DNA of 23,125 nucleotides from a virus, in the IMG/VR virus record IMGVR_UViG_3300048596_000042, positions 1 to 23,125 of that record; one strand, given 5' to 3'. Both the position numbers and the translations under genes were made by a program. A model generated the notes under the pieces. It did not search any database and was not told the DNA's origin. It saw only the letters and a program-made list of their open reading frames with translations. Position 1 is the stretch's first letter. Every line of letters begins with the position of its first letter. Of this stretch, positions 3,462 to 16,327 are shown one piece after another.

Positions 3462-3514
3462 AGCCGGGCCGCGTTGACGCGCGACCCGGCTCGGGGGGAC
3501 CTCCAGTGTCCCCC
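3462..3514 (+). terminator. Two tandem hairpins after the first early gene
   Basis: The first hairpin has arms 3462-3468 and 3485-3491 (AGCCGGG and its complement) with an inner CGCG-TTGA-CGCG stem. The second has arms 3494-3500 and 3508-3514 (GGGGGAC and its complement) with a 7-nt loop. Both lie in the 106-nt gap between the excisionase-like gene and the main early operon, the only sizeable forward gap before 14.6 kb. They could act as an attenuator that separates immediate-early from later transcription. Confidence 0.5.
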
Positions 3515-3558
3515 GTTCGACCCATCGTTCGCCACCGATCACCCCGGGGGGATCTCCG

Positions 3559-3948
3559 ATGTCCGACCAATCCACGGCCGACCTGCTGAGGCGGTGGGCC
3601 GCGCTTGGACACTGCGAGCAGCAGTTCCTCCTCTTGCACCTGGCGCAGGCCGAGCACGACGGGTTCGCCGACGCGCTGACGGCGGTGGAGGTCCACCGGA
3701 TCCGCCCGGGCGCCGACCCCAAGGCCGCGCGGCTCTGTGTCTCGCTCGACACGGCCGAGATGCAGCGCGACTTCTTCGCCGGGCTGCTGCGTTCGGTCGC
3801 GACCGGGCTGGCCCAGGGCGACCTCGATGACGCGCTGGCGGCGCAAGCGATCCTCGACGCGGTCGAGAGGGCCCTCGAGCGTCCGGCGACGATTCACGCG
3901 GCCTCGGCGGCGGACCGGGAGCGGATGCGCGCGGGTGAGCCGCGGTGA
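3559..3948 (+). CDS. Hypothetical helical protein, first of the coupled early operon
   Basis: This 129-aa predicted all-helical, mildly acidic cytoplasmic protein (MSDQSTADLLRRWAALGHCE and on) has repeated Ala/Leu/Asp segments. It has no Cys pair, membrane segment or recognised motif. The ATG at 3559 is preceded by a strong ribosome site (GGGGGGA, spacing about 6), as expected for the entry point of a long translationally coupled operon. It overlaps the next gene by GTGA. Function unknown. Placement directly before recombination genes suggests an early DNA-metabolism or host-takeover role, but this is a guess from context only. Confidence 0.75.
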   Translation: MSDQSTADLLRRWAALGHCEQQFLLLHLAQAEHDGFADALTAVEVHRIRPGADPKAARLCVSLDTAEMQRDFFAGLLRSVATGLAQGDLDDALAAQAILDAVERALERPATIHAASAADRERMRAGEPR

Positions 3949-4169
3949 ACGGCCCCGATCACTACCTCGAGGCCGAGCGGCTCGTGCACCAGGCCCAGGA
4001 CCTTCCCCGCGTCGACGCTTCGTTCCGCGCCGGGCTCGCGGCCTGCGCGCAGGTCCACGCGACGTTGGCGCTGACCGCGGCGACGATCGCGGCCGCGGAC
4101 GCAGCGGAGTCCCGGGTCGGGCCGAGCTGGCTCGAGGCGACCGCACCCCGACCGGAGGCCCGCCGATGA
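3945..4169 (+). CDS. Small actinophage hypothetical protein
   Basis: This 74-aa protein starts MNGPDHYLEAERLVHQAQDL and has a helical core around AQVHATLALTAATIAAAD. Short proteins with a DHY-EAE-L start and an AQVHATLALAAAT helix recur in actinobacteriophage early regions near recombination genes, but no function has been assigned that I know of. The GTG at 3945 overlaps the previous stop (GTGA), and its own stop overlaps the exonuclease start (ATGA), so the start is well fixed. There are no Cys, membrane or catalytic motifs. Confidence 0.75.
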   Translation: MNGPDHYLEAERLVHQAQDLPRVDASFRAGLAACAQVHATLALTAATIAAADAAESRVGPSWLEATAPRPEARR

Positions 4170-4972
4170 CCGCGTTCGTCCCGCCGATCCGACGGAAGAA
4201 CACCGCGAAGGGCCACTACTACGCCGACGCCGTCGGGACCCGCGTCACCGGCGTCACGACCTTCATCAACGACGGGTCCCCGAAGCCGGCGCTCATCAAC
4301 TGGGCCGGCGACACGACCGCGGACGCGGCGATCGACCGGTGGGACGAGCTCGCCGCGATGAAACCGGCCGCCCGGCTGAAGGAGCTCAAGGGCGCGCGGT
4401 GGGCGGAGAAGGACAAGGCAGCGAAGCGGGGCACCGAGATCCACGGCTACGGCGAGCAACTCGTGAAGGGCGAGACCGTCGACGTCCCCGACGAGCTCCT
4501 CGGCTACGTCGAGGCGTACGCCCGGTTCCTCGACGCATTCAAGGTCGACCCCGACCACGTCGAGTTCTCAGTCGCGTCCTACAAGCACGGGTACGCCGGC
4601 ACCGGGGACCTCATCGCGAACCTGGTGATCCCGCGGGTCGGGACGAAGCGGCTCCTGATCGACCTGAAGTCCTCGAGGTCGGGGATCTTCGGCGAGACCG
4701 CGCTCCAGCTCGCCGCCTACCGGTACGCCGACGTCCTCCTCGACGGCGACGCCGAGGAGCCCATGCCCGAGGTCGACGACTGCGCGGCCGTGCACATCCG
4801 CGGTGACGGCGCCGACCTCATCCCCGTCACCACGTCCCCGGAGATCTTCCGGGACTTCCTCTACGTCCAGCAGGTCGCCCGGTTCACCAAGATCTCCCGC
4901 GACCTCGTCGGCGCGCCGATCTCGCCCGCCGCCCACAGCCCTTACCGGCTCACCCGTACGGAGACCCAGTGA
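4166..4972 (+). CDS. RecB/Cas4-type PD-(D/E)XK exonuclease
   Basis: This 268-aa nuclease of the PD-(D/E)XK superfamily shows motifs typical of RecB/Cas4-like exonucleases, in order: RGTEIHGYGE (about 88-97), Glu133 in HVEFS, Asp148 in GTGDL, the D-x-K pair Asp166/Lys168 in LLIDLKSS, and the QLAAY motif (181-185) that follows the active site. It probably resects phage DNA ends 5' to 3', leaving 3' single strands for the annealing protein encoded next to it. That is a Red-type (Exo/Beta, RecE/RecT) pair. The ATG at 4166 overlaps the upstream stop, and its stop overlaps the RecT-like GTG. No Cys cluster like that of Cas4 is seen, so an iron-sulfur site is unlikely. A frame shadow extends upstream to 3737 but lacks coding character. 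Confidence 0.87.
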   Translation: MTAFVPPIRRKNTAKGHYYADAVGTRVTGVTTFINDGSPKPALINWAGDTTADAAIDRWDELAAMKPAARLKELKGARWAEKDKAAKRGTEIHGYGEQLVKGETVDVPDELLGYVEAYARFLDAFKVDPDHVEFSVASYKHGYAGTGDLIANLVIPRVGTKRLLIDLKSSRSGIFGETALQLAAYRYADVLLDGDAEEPMPEVDDCAAVHIRGDGADLIPVTTSPEIFRDFLYVQQVARFTKISRDLVGAPISPAAHSPYRLTRTETQ

Positions 4973-6123
4973 CAGAGCTCGAGCAGTACCAGCCCGCCGC
5001 GGCCGTCGTCGCCGCGCTGCCGCCCGGGGCGAGCAACGTCCGCGCCTGGGTCGAGACCTACCAGTTCGCGGTCGAGTTCGCGGCCGCGGTCGTCGACACC
5101 CCGTTCGTCCCGGACTCCTACCGCCCGCGGATCCCGGACCGGGCCACAGACGCGCAGCGGTACGCGGCGAGGGAGATCGCGATCGCGACCGCGGCGACCG
5201 CGATCGTCTACGGCGCCGGGATCGGGTTCGACAACCCCGTGCAGGCGCTGCAGAACGTGTACGTCGTCAAGGGCCGCCCTGCGCTGTACGCCGACGCGAT
5301 GGTCGCCGTCGTCCAGGCCGCCGGTCACGAGTTCTGGGTCGAGGAGGTCACCGACTCCCGCGCCGTGGTCTGCGGGCGCCGCGCCGGTGGGCGCGAGGAG
5401 CGGGTCACGATCACGATGGACCAGGCCCGCAAGGCCGGGTGGACGCAGCGGAACGACAACTACGCCAAGGACCCGCAGGCGATGCTCTACGCCCGCGCGG
5501 CCGGGCGGTTGTGCAAGCGGATCGCGCAGGCCGAGCTCAAGGGCTTCGTCGCGATGGAGGAGGCCATCGACGGCGACGACGACGCGATGAACGCGGTCCC
5601 GCCGGCGCCGAACCTGGTGACCCGCACGGCGCTACCCGCGGGCGAGACCAGCGACGAGCAGCCCGCCGCTCCGGCCGCCGCGGCGAAGCCGGCCGCGAAG
5701 ACCGCGGCGTCGCGGACCCGGAAGAAGACCGCAGCGGCGGCGCGCCCGACAGGTGAGGCCGGACCCCCGCCGCTACCGGGCGAGGACACCACCGCCCCGG
5801 CCGCGGCTGCGGCCACGCCTGCCGCCGCGCCGCCGCTGCCCGGTGAGGGCGACGCCCGCCCGACCCCGGAGCAGCTGACGGCGATGGACACCGGGTTCGC
5901 GGAGCTGGAGATCACGGGGGTCGCCCGCCGCGACTACGTCGCGAAGGTGATCGGGCGTCAGGTCGGCCACCCGAACGAGTTGACCGCGGCGGACGTCGCG
6001 AAGGTCGTCGAGGCGCTGCAGGCCCCGGCGTTCGACCCGGACGACCAGGACGACCCGGGCTCTGACGCCGACGGTTACGACGAGGAGCCGCAGCAGGACC
6101 CTCAGCAGGAGACGCTCGGATGA
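4969..6123 (+). CDS. recT: RecT-like single-strand annealing protein
   Basis: This 384-aa protein has a conserved N-terminal domain (about 55-205) containing the RecT-family signature: YGAGIGFDNPVQALQNVYVV, a GRPALYADAMVAVVQ segment, and a later WTQRNDNYAKDPQAMLYARA. RecT proteins coat single strands made by the partner exonuclease and anneal homologous DNA, here likely for genome circularisation or replication-linked recombination. Residues 210-290 form a long Ala/Pro/Lys-rich linker with KKTAAAARP. A small acidic C-terminal domain follows and ends in a Gln/Asp/Glu-rich tail, similar in style to tails that recruit partner proteins. The GTG at 4969 overlaps the exonuclease stop, so the two are made together. 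Function of the C-terminal domain is unknown. Confidence 0.87.
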   Translation: MTELEQYQPAAAVVAALPPGASNVRAWVETYQFAVEFAAAVVDTPFVPDSYRPRIPDRATDAQRYAAREIAIATAATAIVYGAGIGFDNPVQALQNVYVVKGRPALYADAMVAVVQAAGHEFWVEEVTDSRAVVCGRRAGGREERVTITMDQARKAGWTQRNDNYAKDPQAMLYARAAGRLCKRIAQAELKGFVAMEEAIDGDDDAMNAVPPAPNLVTRTALPAGETSDEQPAAPAAAAKPAAKTAASRTRKKTAAAARPTGEAGPPPLPGEDTTAPAAAAATPAAAPPLPGEGDARPTPEQLTAMDTGFAELEITGVARRDYVAKVIGRQVGHPNELTAADVAKVVEALQAPAFDPDDQDDPGSDADGYDEEPQQDPQQETLG

Positions 6124-6781: not shown

Positions 6782-6984
6782 CGGGGGATCAGCTCTCGCT
6801 CGAGCTTTACATCGAGCTTTACACCGGCCCTGGCCGCGACGCCGACGAGGTCCTCGACGTGTGGGCCGGTGAGGGCCGCCCCGCGCGCCTGTGGCACCGA
6901 AGAGGGAACCTCGGGTCCATCCGGTCGTCCTGCCTGTGGCGTCCCGTCGAGACCGTGACCCTGGCCGCCGGCGATGTCCTATGA
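6778..6984 (+). CDS. Hypothetical protein with LELY/IELY repeat
   Basis: This 68-aa protein (MTGDQLSLELYIELYTGPGR and on) has a Trp-rich second half (VWAGEG, RLWHRRG, CLWRPVE). A 12-bp tandem repeat at 6800-6823 encodes LELY-IELY. Its start region is nearly the same, in DNA and protein (MTGDQ), as that of the next gene at 6981. This hints that one start was copied or that the gene entered by recombination at short homology. GTGA and ATGA overlaps at its two ends fix the frame. The small compact mix of Trp and Arg might be a nucleic-acid binding fold, but I do not recognise it. Confidence 0.7.
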   Translation: MTGDQLSLELYIELYTGPGRDADEVLDVWAGEGRPARLWHRRGNLGSIRSSCLWRPVETVTLAAGDVL

Positions 6985-7370
6985 CGGGCGATCAGGTCTG
7001 CCGCGGCTGCCGCGAGGAAACCGACTTCACTCAGGGCCGCGGACTATGCCGCCGCTGCTACCAGCACCACCACCTCGCGGGGACCCTCGATCAGTTCTCC
7101 ACCCGCGGTGAGGCGCTTCTCTTCGTCGACGTCTCTTGGCACATCGACGCGCTCTGCGCCGAGACCGACCCGGAGATCTTCTTCCCAGAGAAGGGCGGGT
7201 CCACGAGGCCCGCGAAGGCCGTGTGCTCGCAGTGCGTCGTGCGAGCCGAATGCCTCGACTACGCGCTGAAGACCCAGCAACGGTTCGGGATCTACGGCGG
7301 CGTCAGCGAACGCGCCCGCCGCCGCCTGGCCGCGCAGGCCGAAGCCGACGACCTGGAGGGAGCGGCATGA
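6981..7370 (+). CDS. WhiB-family regulator with N-terminal zinc knuckle
   Basis: This 129-aa protein has two metal-binding parts. Residues 7-26 hold CxxC-x12-CxxC (Cys7, 10, 23, 26), a probable zinc knuckle. Residues 55-115 form a WhiB domain with the four iron-sulfur ligands Cys59, 82, 85 and 91 in the C-x22-C-x2-C-x5-C spacing. The family turn (GIYGG, 103-107) and a basic DNA-contacting tail ERARRRLAAQA follow. WhiB proteins are found only in actinobacteria and their phages. They bind a [4Fe-4S] cluster and the main sigma factor to change promoter choice, and phage versions can repress host whiB genes. The added zinc knuckle is unusual. ATG 6981 overlaps the previous stop (ATGA). Confidence 0.9.
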   Translation: MTGDQVCRGCREETDFTQGRGLCRRCYQHHHLAGTLDQFSTRGEALLFVDVSWHIDALCAETDPEIFFPEKGGSTRPAKAVCSQCVVRAECLDYALKTQQRFGIYGGVSERARRRLAAQAEADDLEGAA

Positions 7371-8497
7371 CGGACACGACCGAGCTGACCGTGCTGAAGA
7401 TGCTCGCCGCACGCCGACGCGTGCAGTTCGTCGCCACCGCGTGCTCGCTCATGCCGGTGCAGGTCCTCGACATCGCTCGGCGCCACGGCTGCCTCGTCGC
7501 GAACGGGGAGGTCGACTACACCGCCGCCGGGCACGCCGCCGCGGAGCTGCTGCAGGCCAACGGTGCCCGGATCCCCGTCCGCGACCCGGAGCCCGTTAAG
7601 CCACACGCTGCGCCGCCCGTGAGGGTTACGCACCCCGTTCCGGGGCCACCGGCCGCCGCGTCGAGGCAGATGCCGCCCCCGGCTCCGTCCGTCGCGGACG
7701 ACCAGCTGCTCCGCGTCCGCATCGAGCAGGTCCACCCTGACCCCGACAACCCGCGCACCGACCTCGGCGACGTCACAGAGCTCGCGGACTCGTTGCGCGC
7801 TGTCGGGATGCTCCAGCCGATCGTCGTGCGCCGCAGCGCAGGCGGGTACCTCATCGTCGCCGGGCACCGCCGCCACGCCGCGGCCCGCCTCGTCGGGTGG
7901 GCGACCCTGCAGGTCATCGTCCGCCGCGCCATGCGCCCCGACGACGTCCTCGCCGCCATGTTGGTGGAGAACTCCCACCGCAAGGACCTCGACCCGATCG
8001 AGGAGGCCCGCGGCCTCGCCCGGCTGAAGGCGCAACTCGGCGTCGGTGACTCCGTCGTCGCCCGCCGCGTCGGGCGCCACCAGTCCCACGTCTCGGCGCG
8101 CCTGATGCTCCTGTCGCTGCCGATCGAGGAGCAGGAGGAGCTACGCCGCGGCGAGATGACCCTCACCGAGGCCCGCGATCGCGCCCGCCTCGCGTCCGGG
8201 CGCATCGGCCCGGGCGTCGGGCGCTCGTCGATCGGGCACCTCGCCGCGTCCCACCCCCTCGCGCACCGTGCGAAGGCCCGGTGCCTGCAGATCGCGGCCG
8301 TCGACCCCACGCACACCCGCGGCAAAGGCAAGGGCGTCGGCGGGATCGCCTGCGGTCAGTGCTGGGAGGCACTCATCCGCTCCGACGAACGGCAGCACCT
8401 GCACTCCCACTCCGCGCGCACCGGCACTTGCGCGATCTGCGACACCCCAATGCCGGTCGAGACCACACCAACCCCACTTCGAGAGGCCACGGCATGA
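7367..8497 (+). CDS. ParB-like protein with C-terminal Cys/His motif
   Basis: This 376-aa protein has, in order: an N-terminal HTH-like segment (about 8-45); a Pro-rich linker (70-110); a ParB/Sulfiredoxin-type N-terminal domain (about 115-205) with HPDPDNPR, the nucleotide-site motif AGHRRHAAARL (165-175) and MLVENSHRKDLDPIEEARGL; an HTH (about 228-250, VARRVGRHQSHVSARL); and a C-terminal segment with C-x2-C pairs (CGQC 329-332, CAIC 355-358) and several His. ParB domains bind and hydrolyse CTP and clamp on DNA. Phage versions may act as transcription regulators, nucleases or in plasmid-like partition. No ParA-like gene is visible, so partition is less likely than regulation. ATGA overlaps lie at both ends. 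The terminal Cys cluster is uncommon for ParB. Confidence 0.85.
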   Translation: MTDTTELTVLKMLAARRRVQFVATACSLMPVQVLDIARRHGCLVANGEVDYTAAGHAAAELLQANGARIPVRDPEPVKPHAAPPVRVTHPVPGPPAAASRQMPPPAPSVADDQLLRVRIEQVHPDPDNPRTDLGDVTELADSLRAVGMLQPIVVRRSAGGYLIVAGHRRHAAARLVGWATLQVIVRRAMRPDDVLAAMLVENSHRKDLDPIEEARGLARLKAQLGVGDSVVARRVGRHQSHVSARLMLLSLPIEEQEELRRGEMTLTEARDRARLASGRIGPGVGRSSIGHLAASHPLAHRAKARCLQIAAVDPTHTRGKGKGVGGIACGQCWEALIRSDERQHLHSHSARTGTCAICDTPMPVETTPTPLREATA

Positions 8498-12897: not shown

Positions 12898-13106
12898 AGC
12901 TCCTCGTCGGGTACCGCCTCGTCGAGGCCGCGCCCGGGTGCCCCTACTGCGGCGAGCGGATCTACACCCTCAGCGACAACGGCCACGCCACCAAGCTCGA
13001 CATCCGCTGCTGGTGCGGCGCGAACGCGACAGTCCCGCGCACCGACCCGGACCTGGCGAAGTGGCCCGGCCTGCCCGTCGCGTACCTCCCCGAGGCGGGC
13101 GCCTGA
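12894..13106 (+). CDS. Small zinc-ribbon protein
   Basis: This 70-aa protein has CPYC (residues 16-19) and CWC (about residues 39-41), a plausible three- or four-ligand zinc ribbon with strand pairs RIYTLSD and KLDIRCW. The GTG at 12894 overlaps the ASCH stop as GTGA. A GTG one codon earlier is also possible. Small single-ribbon proteins like this often contact nucleic acid or the transcription machinery. Function unknown. Confidence 0.68.
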   Translation: MKLLVGYRLVEAAPGCPYCGERIYTLSDNGHATKLDIRCWCGANATVPRTDPDLAKWPGLPVAYLPEAGA

Positions 13107-13107
13107 C

Positions 13108-13497
13108 GTGCTCGAGCCCACCGCCCTGGCCCGCGACGTCCTCGCGCGCGCGCCCAGACCGATCCCGCGCTACGCCGACCCCGCCTGGCACGCCCTACCC
13201 GAGAGCGACCTCCGCCGGGTCGCCGCGGTCCTCGTCGCCGCCGAGTGCTGGCGCAGCCACACCACCCTCGAGCAGATCACCGCGGACCTCCTCGAGCAGC
13301 TCGCCGCGGATGACGCGCTCGTGCGGGCCCGCCTCGTCGCCGCGGCGGTCGACGTCCGTGACGCCCTCCCGTCGATCAGCCCGGAGTCGTGGTGGGACCG
13401 CGTCGCCGCGGCGACCGTCCTCGCCCGTGACATGGCCCGCAAGCACTACGACGAGCACACCGCGCACAACGCACGCCAACGGGGGACCCTGCTGTGA
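13108..13497 (+). CDS. Hypothetical protein, DUF2742-like
   Basis: This 129-aa helical protein contains a P-x-Y-ADPAWHALPESDLRRVAAVLVAAECWR-type segment (residues 18-48), which recalls the DUF2742 proteins of mycobacterial prophages. I give that likeness with moderate confidence. The rest is a helical bundle (LEQITADLLEQLAADDALVR) with a His-rich end. The GTG at 13108 follows the previous stop after a single base. Its own stop overlaps the ATPase GTG, and the adjacency suggests a link to replication. Confidence 0.7.
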   Translation: MLEPTALARDVLARAPRPIPRYADPAWHALPESDLRRVAAVLVAAECWRSHTTLEQITADLLEQLAADDALVRARLVAAAVDVRDALPSISPESWWDRVAAATVLARDMARKHYDEHTAHNARQRGTLL

Positions 13498-14627
13498 CCA
13501 CGCAACGCCCGCCCACCCCCGCCGAGCACGCGATCGCCCGGGAGATCGAGCTCAACGGCGGCGTCCACCCCGACCTCGCCTGGACCGCCTGGGACCCGAA
13601 CCCGCCCCGCAACGACATCCCGCCGCTGGAGACCGAGTTCAACCGGCTCGGCACACCCCTGACCCGCTCGCAGCTCGGGACGCTCCCGAAGATCGAGCCC
13701 CTAGTCCAGGGCGTCATCTCGACCCCGTCGACCGCGGTCCTCGTCGGCGGGTACGGCCTCGGGAAGTCCGTCCTCGCCCACGCCCTCGGGTGCTGCATCG
13801 CGACCGGGAAGCCGTGGCTCAGCCGCGGCGTGCAGCAGCGCCGGGTCCTCTTCGTCGTCGGGGAGGGCGCCTACGGCCTCGACGAACGGATCACCGCATG
13901 GGAACGGGCGTGGAACGCCGGCACCCGGGTCGGGGAGGAGCAGGCCACGTTCCTCGTGAAGCCCGCGTCGCTGCGCGACGAACGGACCTGGAAGGAGGTC
14001 ACGTCCTACGCGGTCGACGGCGGGTACGGGTTCGTCGTCCTCGACACGTTCTCCTCGTTGGCCCCGGACGCGGACGAGACGAAGGACGCGGCCCGGATCA
14101 TGCGGCAGCTCTCCGACCTGTCCTCCGAGCTCGGCGGGACCGTCCTGCTCGTGCACCACCCCGGGTGGGGCGACGCGTCCCGGACCCGCGGCGGGTACCA
14201 GTTCGAGGCGAACGCCGACGAGGTCCTGGTCCTCACCTCCGTCGCCGAGGGGTCGACCCTGGTCTGCCTGACCCGCAAGAAGGTCAAGGACGGCGCGTCC
14301 GGGGGGACGCAGTGGCTGAACCGGCGCCCCGTGTTCGGGTCCGTCATCCTCGAGCACGCCCAGCCCGACGACTCCGAGATCCCCGTCCGCTCCCGGGTGA
14401 TCGCCGTCCTCACCAACTACGGCGACGTCGGCGCGACCGCAGCACAGCTCCTCCTCGAGCTCGCCGTCCCCGAGACCGGCAGATCCCCGTTCTACCGCTC
14501 CCTGCGCCGCCTCGCGGAGGAGGGCGACATCCGCGCCGAGGGCCCGCGCGGTCGAACCAGGTACTTCCTCAGCACCATCCCCACCGTCCAGCAGAACCTC
14601 GACGAAGGGCAGGAGAAGCCGTGGTGA
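13494..14627 (+). CDS. RepA-like AAA ATPase (RecA-fold replicative helicase type)
   Basis: This 377-aa protein has a RecA-type ATPase core: Walker A GGYGLGKS (85-92), a strand FVVGEG (120-125), Walker B VVLD (181-184) followed by TFSSLAPDADE, and a sensor-like VLLVHHPG (217-224). Proteins of this AAA_25/RepA type act as hexameric DNA helicases or helicase loaders in plasmids and phages. The C-terminal part (about 295-360; RVIAVLTNYGDVGATAAQLL, then FYRSLRRLAEEGDIRAEG) is a winged helix that could bind origin DNA. The repeat-rich region starts directly after the gene, as in replicons where Rep protein and origin are adjacent. The GTG at 13494 overlaps the upstream stop. No primase or DNA polymerase is seen in this window. 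Confidence 0.87.
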   Translation: MTTQRPPTPAEHAIAREIELNGGVHPDLAWTAWDPNPPRNDIPPLETEFNRLGTPLTRSQLGTLPKIEPLVQGVISTPSTAVLVGGYGLGKSVLAHALGCCIATGKPWLSRGVQQRRVLFVVGEGAYGLDERITAWERAWNAGTRVGEEQATFLVKPASLRDERTWKEVTSYAVDGGYGFVVLDTFSSLAPDADETKDAARIMRQLSDLSSELGGTVLLVHHPGWGDASRTRGGYQFEANADEVLVLTSVAEGSTLVCLTRKKVKDGASGGTQWLNRRPVFGSVILEHAQPDDSEIPVRSRVIAVLTNYGDVGATAAQLLLELAVPETGRSPFYRSLRRLAEEGDIRAEGPRGRTRYFLSTIPTVQQNLDEGQEKPW

Positions 14628-15073
14628 CCACAGGCGACCTTTGCACCCGCTTTGCCCGCGTTCGCCCGCGAGTGTCACAGGAACCAAAAGTGACACAGCG
14701 CGCGGACCTGCGGATACGACCCCGGTCGATCCTGAGAATCCCAGGATGTGGACGGTTCCCGAGATCAACATCGGCAGGTGATCGTTTCACCTGGTCACAA
14801 TGCGGCGTGTCGCGCCGACACGCCGAGCGAAGTGACACTCGAAGTGACACTCACGCCAGACCCCCGAAAACCGCGAGTGTCAGCCAGTGTCACCCCCTGA
14901 CACTCGAATCGGGGGCATACCCGCAGGTCACAGTCTCGCGGACTTTGGTGAGTGTCAGCGAGTGTCACCCCATGACACACAGGCGAGTGAGTGTCCTTGA
15001 GCCCCCCTCTTTAGAGGGGCTCAAGCACTACTCACGGCGGACGGAAATCGACCCCCTGCGCAGGACCTCGTGA
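14624..15073 (+). CDS. Uncertain ORF running through the iteron region
   Basis: A 149-codon frame starts with a GTG overlapping the ATPase stop (GTGA) and stops at the TGA of the next gene's GTGA, so it would keep the operon chain unbroken. Against it, third codon positions are far less GC-rich than in true neighbours (AAA, TTT, ACA, CTT, TCA common). The translation is Ser/Arg/Thr-rich with no domain, and the DNA is full of repeats. It may be a genuine gene that carries the iterons, a decayed gene, or chance. The five GTGACAC/TGACAC sites that could supply a TGA stop all avoid doing so in this frame. Confidence 0.25.
   Translation: MTTGDLCTRFARVRPRVSQEPKVTQRADLRIRPRSILRIPGCGRFPRSTSAGDRFTWSQCGVSRRHAERSDTRSDTHARPPKTASVSQCHPLTLESGAYPQVTVSRTLVSVSECHPMTHRRVSVLEPPSLEGLKHYSRRTEIDPLRRTS
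14805..14823. repeat. Perfect 8-bp dyad in the iteron region
   Basis: The arms GCGTGTCG (14805-14812) and CGACACGC (14816-14823) are separated by 3 nt. Its core GTGTCG/CGACAC is close to the GTGTCA iteron word. It sits just before the tandem 12-mers and is a likely protein-binding site. Confidence 0.7.
14828..14851 (+). repeat. Tandem 12-bp iteron, two perfect copies
   Basis: CGAAGTGACACT occurs twice head to tail (14828-14839, 14840-14851) with no spacer. The 12-bp period is close to one helical turn, so bound proteins would lie on nearly the same DNA face. Confidence 0.85.
14875..14905 (+). repeat. 31-bp composite repeat, copy 1
   Basis: It is composed of GAGTGTCA, AGTGTCAC and TGACACTC, so it contains two direct iterons followed by an inverted one. 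It matches copy 2 at 28 of 31 positions, by direct comparison of the two stretches. Confidence 0.85.
14950..14980 (+). repeat. 31-bp composite repeat, copy 2
   Basis: It has the same layout as copy 1 with three substitutions, 75 bp downstream. A further partial unit, GAGTGTCC, lies at about 14989-14996, next to the terminal hairpin. Confidence 0.85.
14996..15025 (+). terminator. Long hairpin closing the iteron region
   Basis: CTTGAG (14996-15001) pairs with CTCAAG (15020-15025), and CCCCTC (15004-15009) with GAGGGG (15014-15019), around a TTTA loop with a 2-nt bulge. This 12-bp stem ends about 45 nt before the next start. It could be a terminator for the early operon or a structural part of the origin. 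No T-run follows. Confidence 0.55.
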
Positions 15074-15393
15074 CCGCCGACGTGCAGGTCCTCGCCCGCA
15101 TCCGCGCCCAGGACTTCCATTGCCGCCCCCAGGCCTACCGCGACGAGGTCCTCGCGTGGCTCGATGCGAACGGGGTCAACCCCGCCGACATCCCTGCGAA
15201 CTGGGGAAGCCGCGACGTCGAGATCGTGCTGCTCGACGCGCCGGCGATCGCCCGCGACGAGGTAGTGCGCGACTCCGACGGGCGCGTGTTCTTCGATGAG
15301 GACCCGACGACCGGTGGGCGGACCATCCGGCGCCGCCGGGTTCACTCGCTGCTGCGGGTCCCGCTCCCCGAACACCTCGCGGACCCGACGTGA
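15070..15393 (+). CDS. Hypothetical protein
   Basis: This 107-aa mixed alpha/beta protein (MTADVQVLARIRAQDFHCRP and on) has a helical first half with DEVLAWLDANGVNPADIP, a strand VEIVLLDAPAI, and a basic RRRRVHSLLRVPLP near the end. It is the first gene beyond the iteron region, with a GTG start close after AGGACC. No known motif. The family is common beside replication genes in actinophages, but I know of no assigned function. Confidence 0.72.
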   Translation: MTADVQVLARIRAQDFHCRPQAYRDEVLAWLDANGVNPADIPANWGSRDVEIVLLDAPAIARDEVVRDSDGRVFFDEDPTTGGRTIRRRRVHSLLRVPLPEHLADPT

Positions 15394-15742: not shown

Positions 15743-16300
15743 TCAATCCCGGCGATCCCCGACCGGGCGCCGCGTCAGCTGACCGAGTCCATCAGGCATC
15801 GCTTCGAGGAGACGTTCCGCCGCCTCTTCGCTGACCCGCTCGATGCTCCAGTCCGCATCACCGTCCTGGCGTCGGTGAACCTCGACGTGCCCGTCATGCC
15901 ACACGAGCATGAGCGCCTCCCCGTCCAACGTGGCCGTCAGGACCTTGTCCGCGTGGGAGTCCTGCTTCGGCATCGTGGCAGCCGACCGCTGTTGCCGTGC
16001 CTTCGGTCGCGCCTTCGCCCGCGGCGCGGCGCCGTCCTTGGCCGTGGACCCGTACCGCTGCCGCGCCGCCTCTCCGGAGGTCCCGAGGAACACGGCGATC
16101 GCCGCCCAGGAGCAACCCGCAGCGCGGGCCGCGGTCACGGACTCGGTGAGCTCACGCTCTGCGGCGGCACGCGCCGTCGCGGCGTCGCGGACCCGACGCA
16201 GCGCGTCGACGTCCTGCACCGTGCCGGGGGCGTCGTCGGCCTCGAAGCGGGCCGCGAGCTCGTCGGCATGGTCGAGGATCTCCTGCAGAGAGCGGGGCAT
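15743..16300 (-). CDS. Putative antitoxin with HTH and C-terminal extension
   Basis: This protein is about 185 aa. The first 90 residues (SLQEILDHADELAARFEADD, then an acidic helix) end in a helix-turn-helix GCSWAAIAVFLGTSGEAARQ followed by RYG, a pattern seen in antitoxins next to small BrnT-like toxins. A basic linker (AKARPKARQQR) and an extra C-terminal domain of about 80 residues (VLTATLDGEALMLVWHDGHV) follow. The extension is larger than I would expect and may neutralise the toxin or bind another ligand. Start chosen at ATG 16300, with a ribosome site AGGTGAT spaced by 4. ATG 16306 or GTG 16309 are possible. It lies 27 nt after the toxin gene and likely represses their shared promoter. 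Confidence 0.72.
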   Translation of the reverse strand: MPRSLQEILDHADELAARFEADDAPGTVQDVDALRRVRDAATARAAAERELTESVTAARAAGCSWAAIAVFLGTSGEAARQRYGSTAKDGAAPRAKARPKARQQRSAATMPKQDSHADKVLTATLDGEALMLVWHDGHVEVHRRQDGDADWSIERVSEEAAERLLEAMPDGLGQLTRRPVGDRRD

Positions 16301-16327
16301 CGTCATCACCTGGTGTGGTCGTCGTTG

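Follow-up and report, generated by a model that had tools for sequence, protein, structure and literature searches.

Phage P4 alpha is a helicase whose C-terminal domain binds short repeats, and the P4 repeat, GGTGAACAG, matches the array ACTGTTCACC of an Escherichia coli prophage considered below and not the array that is the subject of this study. In PICI/SaPI elements the replication origin lies directly 3' of rep and carries element-specific iterons, and autonomous replication has been shown for some of them (PMC6092414). ORF904 of pRN1 possesses a C-terminal winged helix, and an essential stem-loop 3' of its gene acts as origin (PMC4234260). For another phage AAA_25/RepA-like protein, 5'-3' DNA helicase activity has been demonstrated (PMC8965321). 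The RepA mycobacteriophage prophages, such as Miko, Rachaly and Jeeves, are reported to have an N-terminal HTH and no repeated motifs near repA (PMC7157519). No description of the helicase-plus-array arrangement reported here was found in the open-access literature, to which the original SaPI and P4 papers do not belong.

The unit in question consists of a RepA-like ATPase gene and the noncoding region 14628-15069 behind it, which is in all likelihood the replication origin of an actinobacteriophage, with the ATPase as its initiator-helicase; replication, binding and melting are inferred. By analogy, the unit may work like PICI rep-ori, P4 alpha and pRN1 ORF904, which belong to another superfamily (SF3), and its fold groups it with RSF1010 RepA. 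With PICI it shares element-specific repeat words and a place directly 3' of the gene, a likeness that concerns the position of the array, whose origin function is unproven. PICI iterons flank an A+T-rich region, whereas our unit lacks an obvious A+T-rich centre and has a TTTA hairpin instead, and the D5-type (SF3) helicase of PICI-type replicons is unrelated to the RepA/RecA fold. P4 alpha, a primase-SF3 helicase, is also unlike this ATPase. With pRN1 the unit shares a helicase with a C-terminal winged helix and a putative origin stem-loop downstream of the gene, but ORF904 combines prim-pol with an SF3 helicase, and its stem-loop is about 100 nt long and without iterons. RSF1010 RepA is the closest solved fold, with a match limited to the RecA-type core; it differs in that origin melting there falls to a separate protein, RepC, which acts ahead of RepA loading. 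Miko, Rachaly and Jeeves would resemble the present phage in protein-dependent extrachromosomal replication in actinophages.

The window, that is, the whole stretch of DNA analysed, is IMG/VR record IMGVR_UViG_3300048596_000042 (23,125 nt, classed as linear, GC 0.71). It encodes a WhiB protein, a ParB, a RuvC-like nuclease, an HNH protein and an SPP1-type portal and therefore derives from a tailed phage, whose host, judged from WhiB, is most likely an actinobacterium. The ParB may indicate an extrachromosomal prophage or may be a ParB-like regulator; no ParA was seen in the window. No recognised primase was found in the window either, the record being a fragment. The features are as follows.

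6891-7370, plus strand: WhiB-family protein, pointing to an actinobacterial host
7364-8497, plus strand: ParB_N plus HTH_ParB protein (PF02195 and PF17762)
13494-14627, plus strand: RepA-like ATPase (RSF1010 RepA fold, Pfam AAA_25), 377 aa, proposed initiator-helicase
14385-14573, plus strand: C-terminal winged helix of the ATPase, about residues 298-360, from AF2 secondary structure
14628-15069, no strand: proposed replication origin, the whole noncoding region, with array position conserved in relatives
14669-14978, no strand: array built from GTGACACT(CG), which occurs ten times and in either orientation
14729-14747: perfect dyad with 6-bp arms
14775-14793: perfect dyad with 7-bp arms
14803-14825, no strand: perfect dyad with 10-bp arms, CGGCGTGTCG-CGC-CGACACGCCG
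14828-14839 and 14840-14851, plus strand: two identical tandem 12-mers, CGAAGTGACACT
14875-14905, no strand: composite repeat copy 1, in which direct and inverted words are combined, matching copy 2 at 28 of 31 positions
14950-14980, no strand: composite repeat copy 2
14987-15035, plus strand: closing hairpin with core CCCCTC-TTTA-GAGGGG, its arms extending through an array-like word at the base
15070-15393, co-directional with the ATPase gene: next gene after the noncoding region

Beyond these features, the DNA at 16052-16311 shares about 70% identity with that of Gordonia phages such as Yeezy and Attis, where the matching genes are annotated as hypothetical protein or BrnT-like toxin; in the window its minus strand carries an ORF whose function is unknown and which matches an HTH-type PHROG.

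The noncoding region between the ATPase gene and the next gene is 442 nt long, with a GC of 0.62. A 711-aa open frame (12938-15073) crosses it, but codon-position GC bias is absent from all frames, and the region is for this reason regarded as noncoding. It gave no match in Rfam. Exact GTGACAC/GTGTCAC words are encountered six times (14672, 14690, 14832, 14844, 14887 and 14962), against two in the remaining 22,683 nt of the window, and four one-base variants are found at 14877, 14897, 14952 and 14972; the hexamers GTGTCA/TGACAC number ten. The copies of GTGACACT(CG) are positioned at 14672, 14691, 14833, 14845, 14877, 14887, 14898, 14952, 14962 and 14973. This short-repeat array is far above chance: the commonest 7-mer of the region has 8 copies, and the maximum in 2000 first-order Markov simulations of the region was 5. 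The initial annotation, made from the sequence alone, had listed at least eight GTGACAC-type copies, two identical tandem 12-mers, two 31-bp composite repeats matching at 28 positions, three further perfect dyads and a long closing hairpin, and each of these was recovered. As single-stranded DNA the hairpin folds at -16.7 kcal/mol (z -6.57), and all words lie on one side of it. No obvious A+T-rich stretch that could serve as an unwinding element is present in the region, unlike the E. coli relatives, which are A+T-rich in the corresponding region. The cumulative GC-skew minimum, near 18.5 kb, is away from the array and counts against an origin there. When the exact composite pattern was searched in IMG/VR, one other contig only, L018, was found; it contains the word AGTGTCAC as in the window but no recognisable AAA_25 protein. 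In this contig the AGTGTCAC words lie within 1185-2450, and about 1 kb away there is an unassigned ORF (61-1197) whose end resembles a winged helix.

The 377-aa ATPase matches Pfam AAA_25 at 5.4e-27, and the best PDB fold matches of its AF2 (AlphaFold2) model (pLDDT 76) are 1nlf/1g8y, the hexameric helicase RSF1010 RepA, with E about 1e-10. From this family match and fold it possesses the RecA-type P-loop core of the RepA family; the SF3/D5-type Rep signature is absent, since the protein matches AAA_25 only, while D5_N was found in the E. coli prophage L212. Hexamer formation and 5'-3' helicase activity are predicted from family and fold. The C-terminal secondary structure in the AF2 model (H298-309, H316-322, H327-343, E346-349, E356-359) is that of a putative winged helix, with residues 327-343 as the recognition helix and RSPFYRSL at 330-337. 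Relatives of the ATPase exist that are fused to Toprim or Prim-Pol primase domains.

Relatives were drawn from viral contigs, phage and plasmid records, and genomes. A genome scan with the window protein as sole query confirmed no relatives, and one with an alignment yielded four. The strongest short-word array of a locus is located at the 3' end of the ATPase gene in 76 of 106 usable loci, where 8.0 are expected. Near-identical loci are among these 106, and so are L098-L104 and L107, eight phages that belong to cluster J or carry primase-polymerase fusions and have no array; several of the other negatives (L004, L111 and L158, for example) show by eye arrays of 4-5 words that fall below the scan threshold. 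In the nearest relative, L002, whose ATPase is 54% identical, the array is in the same place but built from GTGGACTT instead of GTGACACT. The array word is lineage-specific, and GTGGACA, GTGAGAC, GTGGGAC, ACCTGTCC, CCGGAGGA, CATCCGAA, GTACCGAA and CGCGGATAG are encountered besides these two. In an uncultivated phage (L083, 4059-4460), 17 words of the GTACCGAA type are packed very densely behind a Toprim-AAA_25 primase-helicase. The word ACCTGTCC recurs behind helicases with seemingly unrelated C-terminal ends (L151 as against L026, L168 and L079), which may possibly reflect convergence or a shared extra binding partner.

The arrangement has exceptions. Cluster J phage Baka encodes a related ATPase (49% identical to that of L111), and no array was detected in the 99 of its 112 kb covered by the analysis; the array is also absent from the primase-polymerase fusion phages (those of Gordonia, of Nocardia and of cluster B). 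In mycobacteriophages of clusters B and J the ATPase fold is kept without the array. The helicase-array unit is therefore not universal, and some lineages use the helicase differently. The initial annotation would have been refuted if homologous phages had kept the ATPase, lost the repeats and carried a conserved protein in their place; the opposite holds in most loci, and an ATPase without repeats is confined to cluster J and the primase-polymerase fusion phages. Its proposal of an iteron origin beside a RepA-like ATPase gains support from this comparative evidence, with replication undemonstrated, and its plasmid-like route is fair as an analogy, subject to the same reservation.

The position of the array also bears on its interpretation as an operator, through which the ATPase or a repressor would control its own operon or the downstream genes. 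The array does stand upstream of the co-directional genes starting at 15070, a winged helix could belong to a regulator, and origin binding and autoregulation frequently coexist. It is, however, 3' of the ATPase gene and not at the ATPase promoter, and no sigma-70-like promoter was found in the region, although this is a weak test for actinobacteria. Moreover, the next convincing ORF in L026 is convergent (4094-4510, minus strand), and at least 10 sites plus a hairpin exceed the usual operator. We consider an operator unlikely.

The closing hairpin of the window shares its TTTA loop with relatives, in which a hairpin often closes the array. Perfect stems of at least 5 pairs around TTTA were identified in 21 of 108 dereplicated downstream regions; TATA, the next tetraloop, was found in 5 loci, and shuffled sequences gave no TTTA-loop stems. 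The complementary loop TAAA occurs in no locus, against 21 for TTTA, and the signal is therefore strand-specific. A stem of at least 4 bp is present at 23 of 56 TTTA sites (0.22 expected). The stems vary widely around the same loop, for example CACTCC/GGAGTG, GGGTC/GACCC and CCCCCCGTTC/GAACGGGGGG, and the words to the left and right of the hairpin are oppositely oriented in nearly all loci having both. These observations bear on whether the hairpin might do no more than terminate transcription, the words being incidental repeats. The hairpin does lie behind a gene, and many actinobacterial terminators lack a T tract; but no T tract follows the window hairpin, a scan for intrinsic terminators found none in the region, the loop is conserved on one strand only, and the words are above chance expectation. 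A terminator alone can hardly be entertained.

Covariation between the array word and the ATPase was examined in two groups. In Mycobacterium-type loci the recognition helix reads x-[ST]-F-X-R. All 13 loci with H, N, D or T at X have a word containing GGACA; among those with Y or F, 2 of 26 have one, L173 and L175, which are the two loci of the TF-x-R family that break the code. In a phylogeny of the ATPase core, with the winged helix excluded, helix residue and word each change ten times, and seven independent supported pairs are concordant in 6.6 cases on average and opposite in none (sign test p 0.016). As the coding of residues and words was done by eye, with the data already seen, this covariation is strong but not blind. 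Arg or Lys at the helix start accompanies GTGAGAC in 9 of 16 loci, against 0 of 23 without it, with too few independent pairs (p 0.125). A broad partial Mantel test is significant for the winged helix (0.138, p 0.0065) and the ATPase core (0.172, p 0.0105) alike and is therefore not used as proof.

The second group consists of E. coli prophages. A RepA-family helicase is present in 547 of 5,426 complete E. coli genomes (at least 80% coverage), roughly a tenth. Its putative recognition helix, K-x-[FML][RK]RWL, starts with Asn or His, and all 14 loci examined fit a simple rule: Asn is associated with GTGAG in 9 of 9 loci and His with GTGGG in 5 of 5 (Fisher p 5e-4, relatedness ignored). By array copies, the Asn loci have 74 GTGAG and no GTGGG, and the His loci 48 GTGGG and 2 GTGAG. 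The last 62 aa of L200 and L210 differ by one residue, the Asn/His position, and the array word is switched. In the pairs L200/L204 and L207/L209 the cores are 99% identical, yet residue and array switch together. As the remaining intergenic sequence of the switching loci also differs (65-75% identity), some switches probably arose by recombination that took in both the gene end and the array, and not by stepwise mutation. Helicase end and array travel together, whether by recombination or mutation. In E. coli the slot after the DUF4222 gene is occupied by one of two modules, either the RepA-like helicase and its array or a D5-type (SF3) primase-helicase followed by an array of its own, so that helicase and array are swapped there as a unit. 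The D5-type case is the following.

L212 (E. coli prophage), 3501-5700: D5_N/DUF5906 (SF3-type) primase-helicase, followed by six ACTGTTCACC

If the repeat ACTGTTCACC is the one bound by P4 alpha, a known helicase-origin module has been exchanged there for the RepA-like one.

Because the array word covaries with the recognition helix in relatives, the winged helix of the ATPase is proposed as the reader of the words. Such binding is inferred, with no binding data to accompany the covariation. The initial annotation had left the choice between the ATPase and an unidentified initiator, and the comparative evidence points to the ATPase's own C-terminal winged helix. An origin whose words are bound by a separate initiator, with the ATPase as helicase only, has a precedent in RSF1010, where RepC first melts the origin and the loading of RepA follows (PMC8965321). 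The covariation with helix residues, down to a single one, implicates the ATPase itself, and no other conserved neighbour was identified; a separate initiator is accordingly improbable, more so than an operator. The same covariation weighs against a centromere (parS) at which the phage ParB (7364-8497) would segregate an extrachromosomal prophage. The window does encode a protein with ParB_N and HTH_ParB, and in mycobacteriophages parS takes the form of repeats next to the partition genes (PMC7157519). A ParB-like ORF is, however, found in none of 195 loci around ATPase relatives (with short flanks), and no ParA was seen in the window. We regard a centromere as very improbable. Operator, separate initiator, centromere and terminator are all weaker explanations than an origin with its own initiator-helicase.

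For such an origin the following mechanism may be proposed. The C-terminal winged helix would bind the words and so load several RepA-fold subunits next to one another. Assembly of a hexameric ring would follow, and the strands would open near the hairpin. The helicase would then start theta-type replication with a primase supplied by phage or host. The TTTA hairpin may act as single-stranded DNA, as a primase or ring-loading site; this is the least certain step. A RepA-type helicase that carries a winged helix for origin binding would, as a single protein, both find the origin and unwind it, and the Toprim or Prim-Pol domains fused in some relatives would add priming. The balance tips, if only slightly, towards the unit being a widespread, undescribed class of phage and prophage replicon, in which a RepA-fold (SF4-type) helicase with winged helix acts as sole initiator at an origin of array plus TTTA hairpin directly 3' of its own gene, specificity shifts by single recognition-helix substitutions matched by concerted repeat change, and the hairpin is a structural priming or loading site.

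In summary, 14628-15069 is very probably the start site of phage genome copying, read by the DNA-binding tail of the helicase, with replication untested. A helicase-plus-repeats unit whose spelling shifts in step with the helicase is, on the comparisons made here, present in many other phages and bacterial prophages. For phages and prophages without an annotated origin this gives an origin-finding rule, namely to inspect the DNA directly behind the AAA_25 helicase gene. The E. coli prophages show natural, near one-residue switches of the array word, which make protein-DNA coevolution, replicon incompatibility and concerted iteron evolution testable in a laboratory strain.
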